From contig NZ_JAGQCD010000002.1 in NCBI RefSeq assembly GCF_024345975.1, positions 124,001-188,000 of the forward strand: a stretch of DNA of 64,000 nucleotides. The letters run 5' to 3'. The position numbers and the translations under genes are program-made. Of the stretch, positions 18,254-64,000 are shown one piece after another. Source of the DNA: Cyanobium sp. Cruz-8D1 (GTDB lineage Bacteria > Cyanobacteriota > Cyanobacteriia > PCC-6307 > Cyanobiaceae). Positions within the stretch are counted from its first letter, which is position 1, and each line of letters opens with the position of its first letter. Under the pieces are notes generated by a model that saw only the letters and a program-made list of their open reading frames with translations, was not told the origin of the DNA and ran no database searches.

Positions 18254-19387
18254 CTAAGCCAATAGCTGCTTGATATAGCCGATTGCTTTGGCTTGCCCGA
18301 TTCGCCAAGTCAGGCAGGCTCCATAGATCAGTCTGGAAAGTCTGGGGAAGGCGTGACTGTGTACCTGTCTGGATAAAATTAGCCTCAGGGGGAATTGCAA
18401 ACGCAAAGATCCATGAAGCCCATGGCCAATCAGTAGCTCAAAGATAGATGGCTTAATGCGTTGAATATATTCAACGAAAATCCAGTCCCAGCCCGGAGAA
18501 AGCATTCGATGCTGGCATTTCCGAAGGCGTTGTTCCGGCTGATAGTCGCTGATCATGCTATCGACTTGACAGAACTCACTGATATGGCGACTGGCTCTTG
18601 CCTTGTCTCTAGATAGTGCTCGCGTAGTTGTTGAGTGGCTCCGAAACCACGATTGCACATTGGGTATATAGCAAACATGGCCATCGGTATTGGTAAGGTA
18701 ATGAAGCCAGAAAAGCCAGTCTCCAGCGAAAAGAAAATTGCCTAGGATTGGCTGAATGCTCATGCATGTAAGGGCCTGATCACGCCTGAATATTACAGCG
18801 CTGGCGTTGGGTATGACATTGCCTTGGGTGAGAAATCGCCTGCAAAACTGATCGCTAGATATGCTGAAGCTCTTCTTCCATAGCTTGCTGTCAAACGCCT
18901 CCGGCCAATAGAAACTGTCTTCGCTGATGTGAGTTCCATTGGCATCAATCTCTGAAGAGCGGCAGTAAGACAATAAAACCTCTTGACCCATGCATTCTAA
19001 TATAGTGGCTAGAAATGTTGGAGGGCATGAGTCGTCGGATTCTGCTATCCAAATATATCGGCCTCTGGCTTTTTTGATGCCCTTCAGCCATTGACTGCAA
19101 GGAGACCCTGAATTGCGATCATTGGTCATCAGCAGGTGTGGAAAATCAGAGAGCTCGTTGCGGATAATCTCCAGCGAATGATCACTTGAGGCATCATCTA
19201 GAACTATTAGCTCGTAATCCTTGAAGGTCTGGCTGCGGATGGATAAGAAGCGTTCGGGGAGAAAATGGGCATGATTGTAATTGGGTACGATCACGCTAAC
19301 TAGGGGTATTTCTGAAGAAGCCCACACCCCAAGGTTTTCATGAATGTGATGAGACGGAGTCTGCGTGGACGTGTTCATGGGTTTCAT
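18254..19387 (-). CDS. Family 2 glycosyltransferase
   Basis: This 377-residue GT-A enzyme starts its catalytic fold at PLVSVIVPNYNHAHFLPER (about residues 28-46), followed by YELIVLDDASSDHSLEII and the nucleotide-sugar/metal motif WIAESDDSCPPTF (about 112-124). The C-terminal third is basic and aromatic and lacks clear membrane helices. It probably adds a sugar to a cell-surface glycan or lipid-linked intermediate; donor and acceptor are unknown. Codon use is markedly AT-richer than the neighbours, like the methyltransferase at 3664, pointing to horizontal acquisition. It stands alone in a sparse region. ATG 19387 or 19378 could be the start. Confidence 0.85.
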   Translation of the reverse strand: MKPMNTSTQTPSHHIHENLGVWASSEIPLVSVIVPNYNHAHFLPERFLSIRSQTFKDYELIVLDDASSDHSLEIIRNELSDFPHLLMTNDRNSGSPCSQWLKGIKKARGRYIWIAESDDSCPPTFLATILECMGQEVLLSYCRSSEIDANGTHISEDSFYWPEAFDSKLWKKSFSISSDQFCRRFLTQGNVIPNASAVIFRRDQALTCMSIQPILGNFLFAGDWLFWLHYLTNTDGHVCYIPNVQSWFRSHSTTTRALSRDKARASRHISEFCQVDSMISDYQPEQRLRKCQHRMLSPGWDWIFVEYIQRIKPSIFELLIGHGLHGSLRLQFPLRLILSRQVHSHAFPRLSRLIYGACLTWRIGQAKAIGYIKQLLA

Positions 19388-19855
19388 GGCGTGCTTGCCA
19401 GATCTCTAATCGATGTGCAGTCGCAAAAACATTAAGCAACGAACAGCCGCAAAATGCTGAGGGCCGATATCAACGGCAACCATCTGGAGACTTTTGCCTC
19501 TGAAGAGCGTGCGAATGCATGGAAGCCAGCAATTGTGAGCTTCAGATGGCCTGGCCGGAATGATACGGGCGCGTGCCGCCAAGCCCATGTTGATGAACAG
19601 TTAGGCTCCGACGCGGGATTTCCTGACTGTAGGGATGGTCGTTGAAAGCAACAGGAATAGCCTCCCGTTCAAAGTTCCCCTGGCAGAAAGGGCCTCTACC
19701 TCTGTTGGTATTCGCATGGCTTCGTTGTAACATTAAGGACAAGGCGGCCTTCTAAATTTTACCGTTGCGACCCTGATGTCCCTGCTCTGGCTCTCTTCTC
19801 GTGTGATGCTGCCTTCAGCCCCCATCGCCCGATCGCGAGCGGAGGCCATTCGCCA
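19388..19855. other. 468-bp intergenic region upstream of sdhC
   Basis: Short open frames on both strands show no motifs. Base composition changes from AT-rich to GC-rich across the stretch. A candidate promoter for the sdh genes is at 19705-19733; no other element can be supported. Confidence 0.45.
19705..19733 (+). promoter_or_regulatory. Candidate promoter upstream of sdhC
   Basis: TTGGTA (19705-19710) and TAACAT (19728-19733) are separated by 17 bases in an AT-rich pocket, about 120 bases before the proposed TTG start of sdhC. The assignment rests on hexamers and spacing only. Confidence 0.3.
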
Positions 19856-20506
19856 TTGAGCCTGCCTGGATTCTGGATCGCCGTCACCGGTCTGGCCCTC
19901 GTGCTGTTCCTGGCTGTCCACCTGGGTGGCGTGGGGATGGCCCTGGCGGATCCGGCGGTTTTCGAACGCTTCTCCACCTCCCTGCACCAGCAGGCCTGGC
20001 TCCCCTGGCTGGAGGTCGCCCTGCTGGCGGCCGGCCTGGGCCATCCCGTGCTGTCGCTGCACAGGGCCCATCGCAACCGATCGGCCCGGGGCCCGGTCGC
20101 CGGCCCCCTGCGCAGTCGCCGGAAGGGGCCGTGGGAGTCGCTGGCGGCCCTGGCGGCCCGGCTGATCCCCTGGAGTGGATCGCTGCTGCTGATCTTCCTG
20201 GCCGTTCACCTGGCCCAGCTGCGCTGGCACCGGCCGGTGGCCGGCGCGGAACTGGCCGCGGTGCTGGCCGTGTTGCGGGCCCCCTGGAGCCTGGTCCTGT
20301 ACGCGGTGGCCGGGGCCGCGGTTGGTCTGCACCTGCTGCATGGCGTCGAGAGTGCCGTGCGCCGGCTGGGACTGCTGGAGCCCGCCAATGCGGCGGTCCT
20401 GCGGCTGGGTGGGAGGGGCCTGGCCCTGCTCCTGGGGGCGGGCTTCGCACTGCTTCCGCTCGCTCTGGTGCTGCGGCCTGCAGGCCCGCTGCTGGCCGGC
20501 GGATGA
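19856..20506 (+). CDS. sdhC: Succinate dehydrogenase/fumarate reductase cytochrome b subunit
   Basis: This 216-residue protein has five hydrophobic segments (about residues 5-25, 48-66, 103-125, 143-165 and 188-208) with histidines near helix ends that could ligate haem. This is the single-subunit, five-helix membrane anchor of type-B succinate:quinone oxidoreductases (Wolinella/Bacillus type). There is no ATG or GTG in frame after the preceding stop; TTG 19856 with a GGAGG 10 bases upstream is the best start. Its TGA overlaps the ATG of the flavoprotein gene, so the two are translationally coupled. Confidence 0.85.
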
Positions 20507-26202: not shown

Positions 26203-28640
26203 CCGTGGTCGGCGCTCGGCGGCGTCCAGCGCCAGTCGGTCACTTCGGGGGCATCCTTGCCGTGGGCATGGGCATAGGCGCGGTGGGACAGGATCGCGTC
26301 CTGCATCCGTTCCTTGACGTGGGCGGCGCGGGAGCGCAGGAAGGGCACCCGGTTGACCACGTCGATGACAAGATTGAAGCGGTCGATCTGGTTGTTCATC
26401 GCCAGTTCCAGGGGCGTGTTGATGTTGCCCTTCTCCTTGTAGCCCCGCACGTGAATGTTGGCGTGGTTGGTGCGGCGGTAGGTGAGCCGGTGGATCAGCC
26501 AGGGATAGCCGTGGAAGTTGAAGATCACCGGCCGGTCGGTGGTGAACAGGGTGTCGAAGTCCCGGTCGCTGAGGCCGTGGGGATGTTCGTTCGGTTCGGT
26601 GAGGGCGAACAGCTTGACCACGTTGATCACCCGGATGCGCAGGCTGGGGATCTCGCGGTGCAGGATCTCCACCGCCGCCAGCGTTTCTTTGGTGGGGATG
26701 TCGCCAGCGCAGGCCATCACCACATCCGGTTCACTCGGTTCGGCCGCGTGGTCGTCATTGCTGGCCCAGCCGACGATGCTGACCCCCTTGGCCACATGGC
26801 GCCGGGCCTGTTCCAGGGTGAAGTACTGCAGGTGCTTCTGCTTGTCGGAGACGATGATGTTGCAGACATTGGTTTCCTGCAGGGCCTCCTCCGCCACCGC
26901 CAGCAGGCAGTTGGCATCCGCCGGCAGGTACACCCGCACCACGTCACCGCTCTTGTTGCCCGCCAGGTCGATGAAGCCGGGATCCTGGTGGGTGAAGCCG
27001 TTGTGGTCCTGACGCCACACCGTGGAGGAGATCAGACAGTTCCAGGGGCCGATCGGGGCCCGCCAGGTGGCATGCAGCAGGCAGGATTCCAGCCATTTGG
27101 CGTGCTGGTTGAACATCGAGGCGATCACATGGGCGAAGGCCTCGTAGGTGTGGAAGAAGCCATAGCGCCCGGTGAGCAGGTAGCCCTCCATCATCCCCAC
27201 CAGGGTGTGCTCGCTGAGCATCTCCACCACCCGACCGCTGCGGGCCAGTTCACTGCCGTTGAGGTCTTCAGGAAGAAACTCCTCCATCCACACCTTCTTG
27301 CTGACTTCGTAGATGGCCTGCAGACGGTTGGAGGCGGTCTCATCGGGGCCGAACACCCGCATGGAGTTGGGATTCGCCTGGATGATGTCGCGCAGCAGCT
27401 CGCCCAGCGGGTAGGTGTTCTCCTCCTCCGTGGCCCCCGGCGCCACCACCTGCACCGCGTAGTCCTCCAGGGAGGGGAACTGCAGCTTGCGGCGCAGCAG
27501 GCCGCCGTTGGCGTGGGGGTTGGAGCCCATCCGCCGGTTCCCCTGCGGTGAGAGCGCCTGCAGTTCGGGCCGCAGCGTGCCGTTCGCGTCGAACAGCTCC
27601 TCGGGCCGGTAGCTCCTGAGCCACTGCTCCAGCAGCTGCAGCTGTTCGGGATCGGTGTTCGGTGCGGCCAGGGGCACCTGGTGGGCCCGCCAGAAGCCCT
27701 CCAGCTTCTTGCCGTGCAGGGAGGTCGGGCCGGTCCAGCCCTTGGGCGAGCGCAGCACGATCATCGGCCAGGCGGGGCGGACCGCCTCGCCGCTGGCGCG
27801 GGCCTCGGCGCGGATCTGCAGGATGCGCCCGATCGCCTGGTCCATGGCGGCGGCCATGGCCCGGTGCATGGCCATCGGCTCGTGGCCTTCGACGAAGATC
27901 GGCTCCCAGCCGTAGCCGCGCATCAGGTTGGCCAGCTCCTCGTGGGGGATGCGGGCCAGCAGGGTGGGGTTGGCGATCTTGTAGCCGTTGAGGTGCAGCA
28001 CCGGCAGCACCGCACCGTCGCCGATCGGGTTGAGGAACTTGTTGATGTGCCAGGAGGTGGCCAGGGGGCCGGTCTCGGCCTCGCCATCGCCCACGCAGGC
28101 CAGGGCGATCAGGTTGGGGTTGTCGAACACCGCCCCGCAGGCGTGTGAGAGCACGTAGCCGAGCTCGCCCCCCTCATGGATCGAGCCGGGGGTTTCCGGG
28201 GTGCAGTGGCTGCCGATGTGGCCCGGGAAGGAAAACTGCTTGAAGAAGCGCCGCAGCCCTTCGGCGTCCTGGCTCTTGTCGGGGTAGACCTCGCTGTAGC
28301 TGCCGTCGAGGTAGGTGGGGCCGAGCACCCCGGGGGCACCGTGTCCCGGCCCCGACAGGTAGATCATGTCCAGGTCGTGGCGGCGGATCACCCGGTTGGC
28401 ATGGGCCCAGAGGAAGGCCTGACCGGGGGAGGAGCCCCAGTGGCCCAGCAGCCGCGCCTTGACGTGCTCATGACGCAGCGGTTCGGCCAGCAGCGGGTTG
28501 GCGCGCAGGTAGATCATCCCCACCGCCAGGTAGTTGGCGGCGCGCCACCAGGCATCGATCAGGGACAGTTCCTGCTCAAATTCCGGTGTCGAGGCCTGGG
28601 CCTCGAAGGGAGCCATCGTCGAGATGGTCATGGCCGTCAC
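26199..28640 (-). CDS. xfp: Phosphoketolase (xylulose-5-P / fructose-6-P)
   Basis: This 813-residue thiamine-diphosphate enzyme cleaves xylulose-5-P or fructose-6-P with phosphate to acetyl-phosphate plus glyceraldehyde-3-P or erythrose-4-P. Typical segments are WWRAANYLAVGMIYL, GHWGSSPGQAFLWAH, YLSGPGHGAPGVL, the ThDP motif VGDGEAETGPLATSWHINKF and SHTLVGMMEGYLLTGRYG-like EHTLVGMMEGYLLTG. YTYEAFAHV-like FHTYEAFAHV and GYKEKGNINTPLELAMNNQ follow in the C-terminal domains. ATG codons at 28640, 28631 and 28616 are all possible starts. It sits between the transketolase-like gene and ackA in one minus-strand operon. Confidence 0.96.
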   Translation of the reverse strand: MTAMTISTMAPFEAQASTPEFEQELSLIDAWWRAANYLAVGMIYLRANPLLAEPLRHEHVKARLLGHWGSSPGQAFLWAHANRVIRRHDLDMIYLSGPGHGAPGVLGPTYLDGSYSEVYPDKSQDAEGLRRFFKQFSFPGHIGSHCTPETPGSIHEGGELGYVLSHACGAVFDNPNLIALACVGDGEAETGPLATSWHINKFLNPIGDGAVLPVLHLNGYKIANPTLLARIPHEELANLMRGYGWEPIFVEGHEPMAMHRAMAAAMDQAIGRILQIRAEARASGEAVRPAWPMIVLRSPKGWTGPTSLHGKKLEGFWRAHQVPLAAPNTDPEQLQLLEQWLRSYRPEELFDANGTLRPELQALSPQGNRRMGSNPHANGGLLRRKLQFPSLEDYAVQVVAPGATEEENTYPLGELLRDIIQANPNSMRVFGPDETASNRLQAIYEVSKKVWMEEFLPEDLNGSELARSGRVVEMLSEHTLVGMMEGYLLTGRYGFFHTYEAFAHVIASMFNQHAKWLESCLLHATWRAPIGPWNCLISSTVWRQDHNGFTHQDPGFIDLAGNKSGDVVRVYLPADANCLLAVAEEALQETNVCNIIVSDKQKHLQYFTLEQARRHVAKGVSIVGWASNDDHAAEPSEPDVVMACAGDIPTKETLAAVEILHREIPSLRIRVINVVKLFALTEPNEHPHGLSDRDFDTLFTTDRPVIFNFHGYPWLIHRLTYRRTNHANIHVRGYKEKGNINTPLELAMNNQIDRFNLVIDVVNRVPFLRSRAAHVKERMQDAILSHRAYAHAHGKDAPEVTDWRWTPPSADHG

Positions 28641-61270: not shown

Positions 61271-61858
61271 GTGCCCCCCAGCGAACCCCAGCCCCTGCTG
61301 GTCGACACCCAGCTGCTGCTCCGGTGGGCGATCGAACCAAGCCGGCTGCCGGCCGGGACGGCGAGCCTGCTGGCGGATCCGGCCCAGCCTTTGGTGCTCA
61401 GCGTCATGAGCCTGTGGGAGGTGGCGATCAAATCGTCCCTGGGCCGGGCCGACTTCCAGGTGGAGGCCGCCGCCCTGCGCCTGGGCCTGCTGGGGCAGGG
61501 ATTCCGCGAACTCCCTGTCCGCGCCGAGCACGCGCTGGCGGTGCAGCACCTGCCCTGGATCCACCGCGACCCCCACCGCTGCGCGGAAGACTTCGTCTTC
61601 GATCGTCTGCTGGTGGTGCAGGCCCAGCTGGAGGGCCTGCGGCTGCTCAGCGCGCCACCGCGCTCCTGGCGCCATGGCTTGAATAAGGCAACGGCGGATT
61701 CAAGGGAACCGGCACTTCCTTTAACAAGCCTGCCGATAGACGGCCTGGCGGTCCCGTTTGCCGATCGCAATCACCAGCACGAGCAACTGCTGGTCCCGCA
61801 CCTCATAGACCAGGCGGAATCCAGCGGCGCGGAGCTTGATCTTGTAGCGATCGCTTGA
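61271..61858 (+). pseudogene. PIN-domain protein with altered, overlapping 3' end
   Basis: The first about 130 residues form a PIN nuclease of the type II toxin class: LLVDTQLLL (D12), SVMSLWEVAIKSSLGR (E50), HRDP and FDRLLVVQAQLEGLRLLS. Between HRDP and FDR there is an eight-residue insert (HRCAEDFV), where other family members have them adjacent. After LLS the frame runs on for about 65 residues that lie antisense to the RelE gene and have no PIN character, and the last conserved Asp segment is missing. No antitoxin gene is adjacent. It is probably an inactive remnant. The start is GTG 61271. Confidence 0.6.
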
Positions 61859-61996
61859 GCCCCGCAGCTTGCTGGCGGGGATGCGGGGCTGGATCAGCCG
61901 TTCAGCCAGCTTCTTCTTGAACGTCTCCCGGATCTCTGCAGCCAGCTTGTGCCACTCGCGAAGGGCCTCGGGGTGGAAGGCCAGCTCATAGCCCAT
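61721..61996 (-). CDS. RelE/ParE-superfamily toxin
   Basis: This 91-residue protein has the RelE-like fold: FHPEALREWHKLAAEIRETF, KLRGSSDRYKIKLRAAGFRLVYEV and LVLVIAIGKRDRQAVY. Basic residues R and K in the central strands and the C-terminal Arg/Tyr correspond to those used for ribosome-dependent mRNA cleavage in RelE. It overlaps the upstream antitoxin gene by 11 bases. Confidence 0.88.
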   Translation of the reverse strand: MGYELAFHPEALREWHKLAAEIRETFKKKLAERLIQPRIPASKLRGSSDRYKIKLRAAGFRLVYEVRDQQLLVLVIAIGKRDRQAVYRQAC

Positions 61997-62243
61997 CCAT
62001 GGTCACGCGCACCGGTTCCTGCCCATCCGCCAGTCGCGTGTCGGCGATGCGGTTGAGCCCCAGGTCTTCGACCAGGTCCATCAGATCCTCATAGGCCTTG
62101 GCGGGCACGCAGTAGAACGCCGGTTCGTTGCGGTTCAGAACGGCCACCGGCAGCCCCTCGCCAGCCGCCACCGTGGCCATCGGATTTTTCTTGAGTTCCG
62201 AGATGCTCACAGCGATCTCGGCCAGCATGCGATGGGCCATCAA
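61986..62243 (-). CDS. Phd/YefM/StbD-type antitoxin
   Basis: This 85-residue protein starts MMAHRMLAEIAVSISELKKNP and continues LPVAVLNRNEPAFYCVPAKAYEDLMDLVEDL. This is the Phd/YefM antitoxin pattern: an N-terminal DNA-binding strand-helix and a flexible acidic tail that occupies the toxin groove. ATG 62243 or 62240 may be used. Together with the RelE-type gene it makes an intact toxin-antitoxin unit next to the tRNA remnant. Confidence 0.85.
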   Translation of the reverse strand: MMAHRMLAEIAVSISELKKNPMATVAAGEGLPVAVLNRNEPAFYCVPAKAYEDLMDLVEDLGLNRIADTRLADGQEPVRVTMDGL

Positions 62244-62328
62244 CTCTTACGACCAGCTCGTGGACCCACTTTAGGTCCCGCAACAGGTCTCGGAGCAGGT
62301 CCCCGGATGTCTGACGCAGCCAGTGTGA

Positions 62329-62375
62329 TGCCCGATGCCGGTTTCGAACCAGCGACATCCTGCTTGTAAGGCAAG
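62329..62375 (-). pseudogene. 3' half of tRNA-Val(UAC); probable attachment-site scar
   Basis: Read on the minus strand, the segment gives tRNA positions 27 to 73. There is an anticodon stem CTTGC/GCAGG around the loop CTTACAA (anticodon TAC, valine), a five-base variable region ATGTC, and a T-arm GCTGG-TTCGAAA-CCGGC. Then come the 3' acceptor strand ATCGGGC and the discriminator A. The 5' acceptor and D-arm, expected at 62376 and above, are missing: the sequence there shows only a chance TGCCC and no D-arm. Such a 3'-half fragment is typical of tRNA-integrating islands, where the displaced 3' end marks the far end of the element. With this orientation the element lies at higher coordinates. 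Confidence 0.85.
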
Positions 62376-62433
62376 GATTTAACTAGGGCAAAAGCCTTGC
62401 GAGAACTGACTCTCTAAGTTGGCAATGCTGGGC

Positions 62434-62457
62434 ATGTGAGAAGGTATGTGAGAAGGT
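62434..62457. repeat. Tandem 12-bp duplication
   Basis: The unit ATGTGAGAAGGT occurs twice without a gap, 59 bases beyond the tRNA-Val remnant. It may be a recombinase arm-type site or a slip-strand duplication. No further copy was noticed nearby. Confidence 0.9.
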
Positions 62458-62840
62458 TCGCCATTTTTGCCCCTTTGCTTGCGAAGCCGCAGCCTTCTTG
62501 AGGGTCGCCTTCAAACAGCCGCCAAGACGGGATTGAGACGCCAGAGACGTGTGGCCGCAGATTTTGCCCCTGCTCCGCAGCGGGGCCAATAGAGGGCTTT
62601 CTTACTGCGCAACGAGCTCGATGACAGGCCACTAGCGGATGTGGTGACTGAGCTGGGTGGGTAGTTGCTGCTGGTGTCGCCCCGTCTAGGCAGCCATCTC
62701 TCGGACCAGCTGCCTGCTGTTCAGCCGGCGCGCGTGACCGCTATGGCATCGCGGCCTGGCTGCGCTGGCAAGACGCTTCGGTCAGCGGCGGCCGTCCTGA
62801 ACTTGCCACGGCGGTGCCGTGGCTGACGTCAGACAGCCGC

Positions 62841-62870
62841 CGCCGCCCTCCGCCGCCCTCCGCTGCCCTC
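62841..62870. repeat. Three tandem 10-bp units
   Basis: CGCCGCCCTC is repeated as two exact copies and one with a single change (CGCTGCCCTC). The region is strongly pyrimidine-rich on this strand. The function is unknown. Confidence 0.85.
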
Positions 62871-63056
62871 CGGGCGTGGGTGTGGGGCTGAAGGTGTCTC
62901 CCGCGACTGCGGTGCCAGGGGTTTTCTGATGCCAATTGATGTTGCTGAAGAGCCGGAATGTCCTGGCTCAGGCTGATGGCCGAGCGGGAGGATCTGGCTC
63001 AGCGGCGCTCCAAGGAGATTGGGCCATATTCCAGTCTGCAGCTGGCTTTTGCTGAG

Positions 63057-63083
63057 TTGATAGTGCAAGTGTTCTGGTAGGAT
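63057..63083 (+). promoter_or_regulatory. Candidate promoter before the SLOG gene
   Basis: TTGATA (63057-63062) and TAGGAT (63078-63083) are separated by 15 bases, slightly short of optimal, in an AT-richer patch 129 bases upstream of the SLOG-family ATG. The call is weak. Confidence 0.25.
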
Positions 63084-63211
63084 AGAGTCTGCGCCAAAGG
63101 CCCTAAGCCCATCGCCGGCGGCAACCTCATCCCCTGATCTCGCCATCACCGCCGCATAAGTCTGAGCGGCCGTGATGCCCCGATCAGTTGTCACCCACGG
63201 CAACTGATTCC

Positions 63212-63709
63212 ATGGCTTTCTGTACTTCATCCAGGTCCGTCATCGCTGCCGGTCGCTCCCTTGTGATCGCGGCCGGCGGCGGCCGTGATCTGGCCTGGTC
63301 CCATCAGCGCATTGCCGCTGAGCTGCTGGCCCGCAGCGGTGGCCGGCTGGTCCATCTGCTGCTCCACGGCGGGGCCCGCGGTGCCGATGCCGCCATCGCC
63401 CGCGCGGCCCATCAGCTGGGCTGGTCGGCGCTGGTCCTGCCTGCCGAGTGGCGGCGCCATGGCCGGGCCGCCGGGCCGATCCGCAACCGGGAGCTGCTTG
63501 AGCTGGCTGTGGCCAGGGCCGAGGCCCACACCTCCCCTGGGGTCTCCACCTCCGTGCTGGTGGTGGCTTTCCCCGGCGGACCTGGCACGGCCTCGTTGGT
63601 GAGCGAAGCCCGCCGCATGGTTTCCCGTGCGCCGGTGCCGATCGCCGTGGTGGAAGTCAGCCCATCAGCGGGCCGTTGGGCCAAGCCCACTGCTGTCTCT
63701 TGCCCCTGA
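63212..63709 (+). CDS. SLOG/DUF2493-like Rossmann-fold nucleotide-binding protein
   Basis: This 165-residue protein has SLVIAAGGGRDL near the start, LLHGGARGADAAIARAA in the middle (the nucleotide-binding loop of the YspA/DUF2493 branch of the SLOG superfamily), PAEWRRHGRAAGPIRNRELL and VLVVAFPGGPGTASLVSEARR. Such proteins are frequent in phages and islands and bind nucleotide-derived ligands, some in defence or conflict systems. ATG 63212 was chosen by family N-terminus. It is followed 49 bases later by the Gp157-like gene on the same strand. Confidence 0.85.
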   Translation: MAFCTSSRSVIAAGRSLVIAAGGGRDLAWSHQRIAAELLARSGGRLVHLLLHGGARGADAAIARAAHQLGWSALVLPAEWRRHGRAAGPIRNRELLELAVARAEAHTSPGVSTSVLVVAFPGGPGTASLVSEARRMVSRAPVPIAVVEVSPSAGRWAKPTAVSCP

Positions 63710-63758
63710 AGCCTTCCGCGCCATTAGGCGCCTCCGTTCCCATTCCCATTTCACCGTC

Positions 63759-64000
63759 ATGCCCGTTCTTACCCCCACCCCCACCGCTGCTGCCACGGCG
63801 CCCGTTCACGTTGCTGCGGATGCAGCTGGCCCCGCCTGTTCCTTGCAGCGCTCAAGCTCCCTTTGGCAGCTGGGCATCGAGGCCCAGGAGCTCACCACGG
63901 CCATCGGCCAGCTGGCCCAGCAGCTGGAAGCCGACGACGACACCCGCGCCCAGGCCCTCGCCGAGCTGGAGGCCGCCCTCCTTGCGGAAGAAGGCAACAA
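63759..64000 (+). CDS. Phage Gp157-like protein (partial, runs off right edge)
   Basis: The visible 80 residues start MPVLTPTPTAAATAPVHVAA, a low-complexity lead-in, followed by SLWQLGIEAQELTTAIGQLA and LEADDDTRAQALAELEAALL. The LWxL-x-EAQEL start and the D-x-D-rich helix spacing fit the N-terminal part of siphovirus Gp157 family proteins, which in streptococcal phages are linked to superinfection resistance. The coiled-coil pattern is clear; the family call is likely but rests on a partial sequence. Confidence 0.6.
   Translation, partial: MPVLTPTPTAAATAPVHVAADAAGPACSLQRSSSLWQLGIEAQELTTAIGQLAQQLEADDDTRAQALAELEAALLAEEGN

Follow-up and report, generated by a model that had tools for sequence, protein, structure and literature searches.

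The window analyzed here is a stretch of 64,000 nucleotides of Cyanobium sp. Cruz-8D1 (contig C21, positions 124001-188000), and the genome searched with it comprises 3.97 Mb in 108 contigs (100% completeness, 0.15% contamination). At the right end of the window a host toxin-antitoxin pair adjoins a partial tRNA gene, followed by phage-type DNA. The features are as follows, in coordinates of the window:

61721..61996, minus strand: host ParE toxin partner (PF05016, E 1.2e-11)
61986..62240, minus strand: host Phd/YefM antitoxin, the first chromosomal gene past the junction (PF02604, just below the cut-off)
62327..62373, minus strand: attachment core at the distal junction, putatively the displaced chromosomal 3' half of tRNA-Val(UAC) (47/47 identity to C40:18649-18695)
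62374..64000, strand not assigned: first 1.6 kb of the proposed prophage, continuing on C21 to 224,362 and then on contig C40 from 28,100 to 18,649 (from gene content and sister-phage gene order)
62434..62457, minus strand: arm-type repeats, two tandem copies of ACCTTCTCACAT on the phage side of the core (23-bp exact match to C40)
63188..63709, plus strand: SLOG-family protein (YspA/cpYpsA-related), the prophage end gene (PF10686, E 1.7e-7)
63759..64000, plus strand: start of a gene for a Gp157-like phage protein, which continues to C21:188388 (PF05565, E 8.5e-25; phrog_253, E 1.1e-25)

The minus strand of 62327-62373 has the sequence TGCCTTACAAGCAGGATGTCGCTGGTTCGAAACCGGCATCGGGCATC, in which the anticodon loop CTTACAA (UAC), the variable region, the T-arm and the acceptor 3' strand can be read, with the discriminator A at 62329. 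The initial annotation, made from this DNA alone, had described positions 27-73 of a minus-strand tRNA-Val as intact and the 5' half as absent. The identity of the tRNA and the absence of its 5' half were confirmed, but the match starts at about position 29, position 28 being T instead of C; the 47-bp core thus spans about canonical positions 29-73 together with 2 bases downstream of the tRNA. Lacking its 5' half, the fragment escapes detection as a gene: ARAGORN made no tRNA call in the window, the fragment included, and the Rfam tRNA score was 24.7 bits against a cut-off of 29 bits. When the whole genome was searched with the fragment, strong matches were obtained only to itself and to C40:18649-18698 (98%), with E values of 1e-68 and 4e-18 and a next best value of 0.07. 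Two strong matches and no others in 3.97 Mb exclude chance. Over C40:18649-18695 all 47 bases are identical to the fragment.

The tRNA-Val(UAC) to which the second copy belongs is intact and was detected by ARAGORN at C40:18622-18693. An intact minus-strand tRNA-Val further to the right, with a tyrosine integrase near it, had been predicted. Both the intact gene and the integrase were found, the latter 138 bp past the tRNA, but they lie on C40; their placement further right and on the minus strand is deduced from the way the contigs are oriented, from arm repeats that match, from the empty site to which the joined flanks correspond and from the order of genes in a sister phage (see below). The integrase gene runs from 18832 to 20094, its start having been shifted from the predicted GTG (C40:19021) to the ATG at 18832, just past the arm repeats, because its homologues begin there. 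Its product matched phrog_1 (E 2.3e-12) and had no Pfam match at E 0.01; similarity to PF00589 is weak, its close homologues reaching E 0.0086 at best, and a phmmer search against solved structures returned chance matches only. Residues R264, K284, R361, H385 and Y394 are invariant across five integrases of the genome (alignment A2) and are read, by motif, as the catalytic R, K, R and H and the nucleophile Y. A structural model of a viral-contig homologue 58% identical to the C40 protein, of modest confidence (pLDDT 66), gave tyrosine recombinases as all of the top solved structures in Foldseek (Tn1549 Int, XerA and lambda Int). Judged by its sequence and by the similarity of the homologue model, the C40 gene product is a tyrosine integrase, albeit a divergent one.

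Three near-copies of ACCTTCTCACAT stand beside the C40 core, at about 18797-18834, and extend right up to the integrase ATG; an exact 23-mer is common to these and to the repeats in the window. The motif recurs beside tRNA-Gly(CCC) on C17 and in the attP of a viral contig (L309, below), and elements on C27, C55 and C31 have another motif in a like layout of repeats. Direct repeats on both phage arms are as expected for integrase arm sites, the role we would assign to them from their sequence and position. A separate motif near CGTGCCARGCT lies upstream of the arm repeats, between the tRNA core and the integrase, on C40, C27, C17, C55, C62 and C31, and is possibly an integrase promoter or a DNA-bending site.

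The SLOG and Gp157-like genes noticed to the right of the fragment are real, by the domain matches listed above, and the element extends toward higher coordinates as had been proposed, with phage genes from 62.4 kb rightwards on C21. In the related elements of C20, C31, C38 and C62 the SLOG gene likewise occupies the distal end. After the SLOG and Gp157 genes, C21 encodes an endolysin-like C39 peptidase, a collagen/Lcl_C tail fibre, a major capsid protein, a scaffold, a portal, a terminase large subunit and a primase. Terminase (phrog_38, E 7e-75), portal (phrog_145, E 3e-31) and an HK97-type capsid protein (major head protein, phrog_212, E 5e-66) are therefore all present. The share of phage genes on C40 consists of VRR-NUC, a DUF2815/Gp2.5-like SSB/annealing protein, KilA-N and the integrase. 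In C21:195366-204590 no tail tube or tape-measure genes were recognised, the matches being of tail-fibre type only, and several of the structural-region genes there had no PHROG match. Between the scaffold and capsid genes lies an island (C21:206167-211811) with DoxX and AraC-family genes; it contains internal duplicated segments that are about 89% identical and is partly present on C49 and C61.

C21 ends at 224,362 inside the phage primase gene, 36 kb past the window, in sequence shared with C61, and the end sequence of C40 is shared with C87, C46, C72 and C49. No bridge between C21 and C40 was found via shared contig ends, both contigs ending in repeats common to other contigs. Since they end in sequences shared elsewhere and do not meet, the linkage between them is indirect. 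The two prophage pieces total about 47.5 kb, which would put the two junctions at least that far apart; C21 and C40 would then form one molecule, with about 2 kb or more of sequence missing between them.

Support for this arrangement was provided by the sister phage. Close relatives of the C40 integrase were present on seven IMG/VR contigs, all seven of which also carry the terminase. One of them, IMGVR_UViG_3300042360_000665 (L309), is 49,900 bp long and has an identical 99 bp at both ends, so that it would circularise at 49,801 bp. At L309:4745-5002 it has arms, the 3' half of tRNA-Gly(CCC) without the 5' half, arms again and then the integrase, an arrangement that is read as an uncut attP. 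Two prophages in tandem could likewise produce an attP-like junction, but a contig that spans just one phage, repeats its first bases at its end and lacks host DNA would then be unexpected. The gene order of L309 is Gp157, attP, integrase, KilA-N, DUF2815, VRR-NUC, helicase, primase, terminase, portal, scaffold and capsid. Opened at attP, it gives the order of C21 followed by that of C40, the helicase region being the one part lost between the two contigs. At C40:26.5-28.1 kb there are genes that the sister phage does not have at that point, followed by the repeat at the contig end, and the prophage copy may therefore be interrupted there. Secreted-looking gene pairs without a Pfam match were seen at C40:20137-21615 and 26512-27782, but not at the corresponding positions of the circular sister phage.

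The empty site was sought by tracing the gene located 5' of tRNA-Val through 18 congeners. Two of them (G008 and G018) have an intact, uninterrupted tRNA-Val and, about 100 bp beyond it, the Phd/ParE pair, with an antitoxin 94% identical to that of the window. When the flanks were joined (C40 left of the core and C21 right of it), they aligned to both genomes through the tRNA over about 1120 bp at 89.5% identity. The comparison of related strains that the initial annotation had called for thus yielded the unoccupied site, and relatives with the fragment but without an element, which would have argued against integration, were not found among the congeners examined. Together with the duplicated core, the empty site bears out the reading of the fragment as the distal scar of integration at a tRNA 3' end. 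Five other congeners (G006, G013, G004, G010 and G011) carry a repeat of the tRNA-Val 3' end 5.7-12 kb downstream, indicating other, shorter insertions at this gene. tRNA-Val(UAC) is an integration hotspot.

Similar pairs occur elsewhere in the genome. An intact tRNA-Gly(UCC) at C27:25758-25828 has a 3' fragment at C20:32348-32394, tRNA-Arg(CCU) at C23:16510-16585 has one at C74:8093-8142, tRNA-Arg(UCU) at C55:10911-10986 has one at C28:1239-1284, and the intact tRNA-Pro(UGG) on C32 has three, on C38, C62 and C31. An integrase adjoins tRNA-Gly(CCC) on C17, for which no mate fragment was found in the genome. These sets mark additional integrated elements, for the most part relatives of the C21/C40 prophage, and with tRNA-Val included there are prophage-type junctions at six tRNA genes of the genome. 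Host genes lie past several of the junctions, and those elements are therefore chromosomal. Backbone proteins encoded on several of these contigs and on others are often 80-98% identical to their C21/C40 counterparts, and the integrases of the related elements are 54-60% identical to that of C40. The integrase at tRNA-Arg(UCU) (C55:11143-11964) is truncated to 273 aa; the gene after it, which is also present at the start of C28, is likely a transposase.

From these sequence comparisons we conclude that the fragment in the window is almost certainly one att site of a prophage, about 50 kb long and of a temperate, tailed-phage type, that occupies tRNA-Val(UAC) of a picocyanobacterium. The integrase, whose gene starts 138 bp past the tRNA, would recombine the tRNA-Val gene with a phage attP in which ACCTTCTCACAT arm repeats flank a second copy of the 3' half. 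The phage-supplied 3' half would then complete a working tRNA at the integrase end, on C40, and the original 3' half would be displaced to 62327-62373 of the window, beside its old neighbour, the Phd/ParE pair; we infer both strand exchange within the core and an active integrase. Integration at tRNA 3' ends by a tyrosine integrase is textbook knowledge from P22, P4 and HP1. The element resembles these and lambda-type systems in the duplicated tRNA 3' core, the tRNA restored at the integrase end, the two-sided arm repeats and the integrase beside the core, and differs from them in its divergent integrase (PF00589 at best E 0.0086) and in arm repeats that reach the integrase ATG.

Two elements in tandem at tRNA-Val, one supplying the C40 integrase and another the phage on C21, with a third core lost in the gaps, would also give these junctions. 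The contig ends are repeats, the genome is rich in related elements and the tRNA-Pro fragments number three on separate contigs, all of which would suit such an arrangement. However, the genome has just two strong copies of the core, and C21 past the fragment holds distal-end, structural and primase genes with no integrase called. C40 in turn is exactly the missing integrase-side half, ordered as in the 49.9 kb sister phage, and the arm motif is common to both junctions while mostly differing at the other elements of the genome; a tandem origin is accordingly improbable.

An integrative island of non-phage type or a phage satellite, rather than a complete temperate phage, is more improbable still. 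Tycheposons and other picocyanobacterial tRNA islands likewise target tRNA 3' ends with a tyrosine recombinase, and the short elements of 5.7-12 kb at tRNA-Val in other congeners have distant integrases. Unlike tycheposons, the C21/C40 element brings capsid, packaging and replication functions of its own. It encodes a terminase, a portal, a scaffold, a capsid protein, a tail fibre, an endolysin and replication proteins, and it has a sister in the form of a circular viral contig. Fragments of tRNAs are also known to arise by other routes, but a stray pseudogene or duplication formed without integration is scarcely conceivable here, because the fragment is bounded by phage DNA to one side and by a conserved downstream neighbour to the other, and the empty site of the relatives has neither phage nor fragment.

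The prophage in tRNA-Val(UAC) belongs to a lineage with a wide distribution. Relatives of its terminase large subunit (TerL) were found at 69 loci, nearly all in records labelled Cyanobium, Synechococcus, Vulcanococcus or unnamed cyanobacteria. Close homologues were present in 46 of the 251 genomes of the family and 13 of its 59 genera, in a survey that scored at most three candidates per genome, so that the number given for any one genome is a minimum. Among isolated phages the best matches were 38% for the terminase and 46% for the capsid. By terminase the nearest isolated relatives are the cyanosiphoviruses PSS2, S-CBS2 and S-CRES1-3 (33-38%), and by major capsid protein PSS2 (46%); these have genomes of 71-108 kb and were isolated as phages, in contrast to the integrated element of about 50 kb described here. 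With the two marker proteins used for the comparison at about 46% or less, no close relation to a cyanosiphovirus of the PSS2/S-CBS2 type was seen. In Synechococcus sp. CS-601, phiSynAce1 was reported as a replication-defective prophage remnant of 8.2 kb (locus 65,524-73,790; PMC6337551). Its locus includes a terminase of the C21 lineage (NZ_CP018091.1, about 70049-71620), and it was reported as a remnant and not recognised as lying within a lineage of full-size, tRNA-integrated prophages. The open-licence literature searched contained no description of the lineage as a group.

A paper on a freshwater cyanosiphovirus describes lysogeny as apparently rare among unicellular cyanobacteria and notes that no inducible prophage has come to light in isolates of Synechococcus or Prochlorococcus, and from other freshwater Synechococcus it names two prophages as intact (PMC6157547). 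The integration mechanism described here is a textbook one. What is notable is that a lineage lacking any close isolate shows abundant lysogeny at multiple sites, and does so in organisms described as having little of it. On balance we favor the view that a temperate-phage lineage without a close isolated member is abundant in freshwater and brackish picocyanobacteria (Cyanobium / Synechococcus 5.2 type), and that in it a shared backbone combined with integrase-att modules for different tRNA genes would let several phages co-reside in one cell. The loci, att sequences and PCR targets now allow tests of the question of picocyanobacterial lysogeny, and the named records of the terminase lineage include cultured strains; Cyanobium sp. 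FGCU6 and FGCU52 are among the sequenced strains that carry it. Related phages at different tRNA genes also constitute a natural experiment on the change of integrase target.
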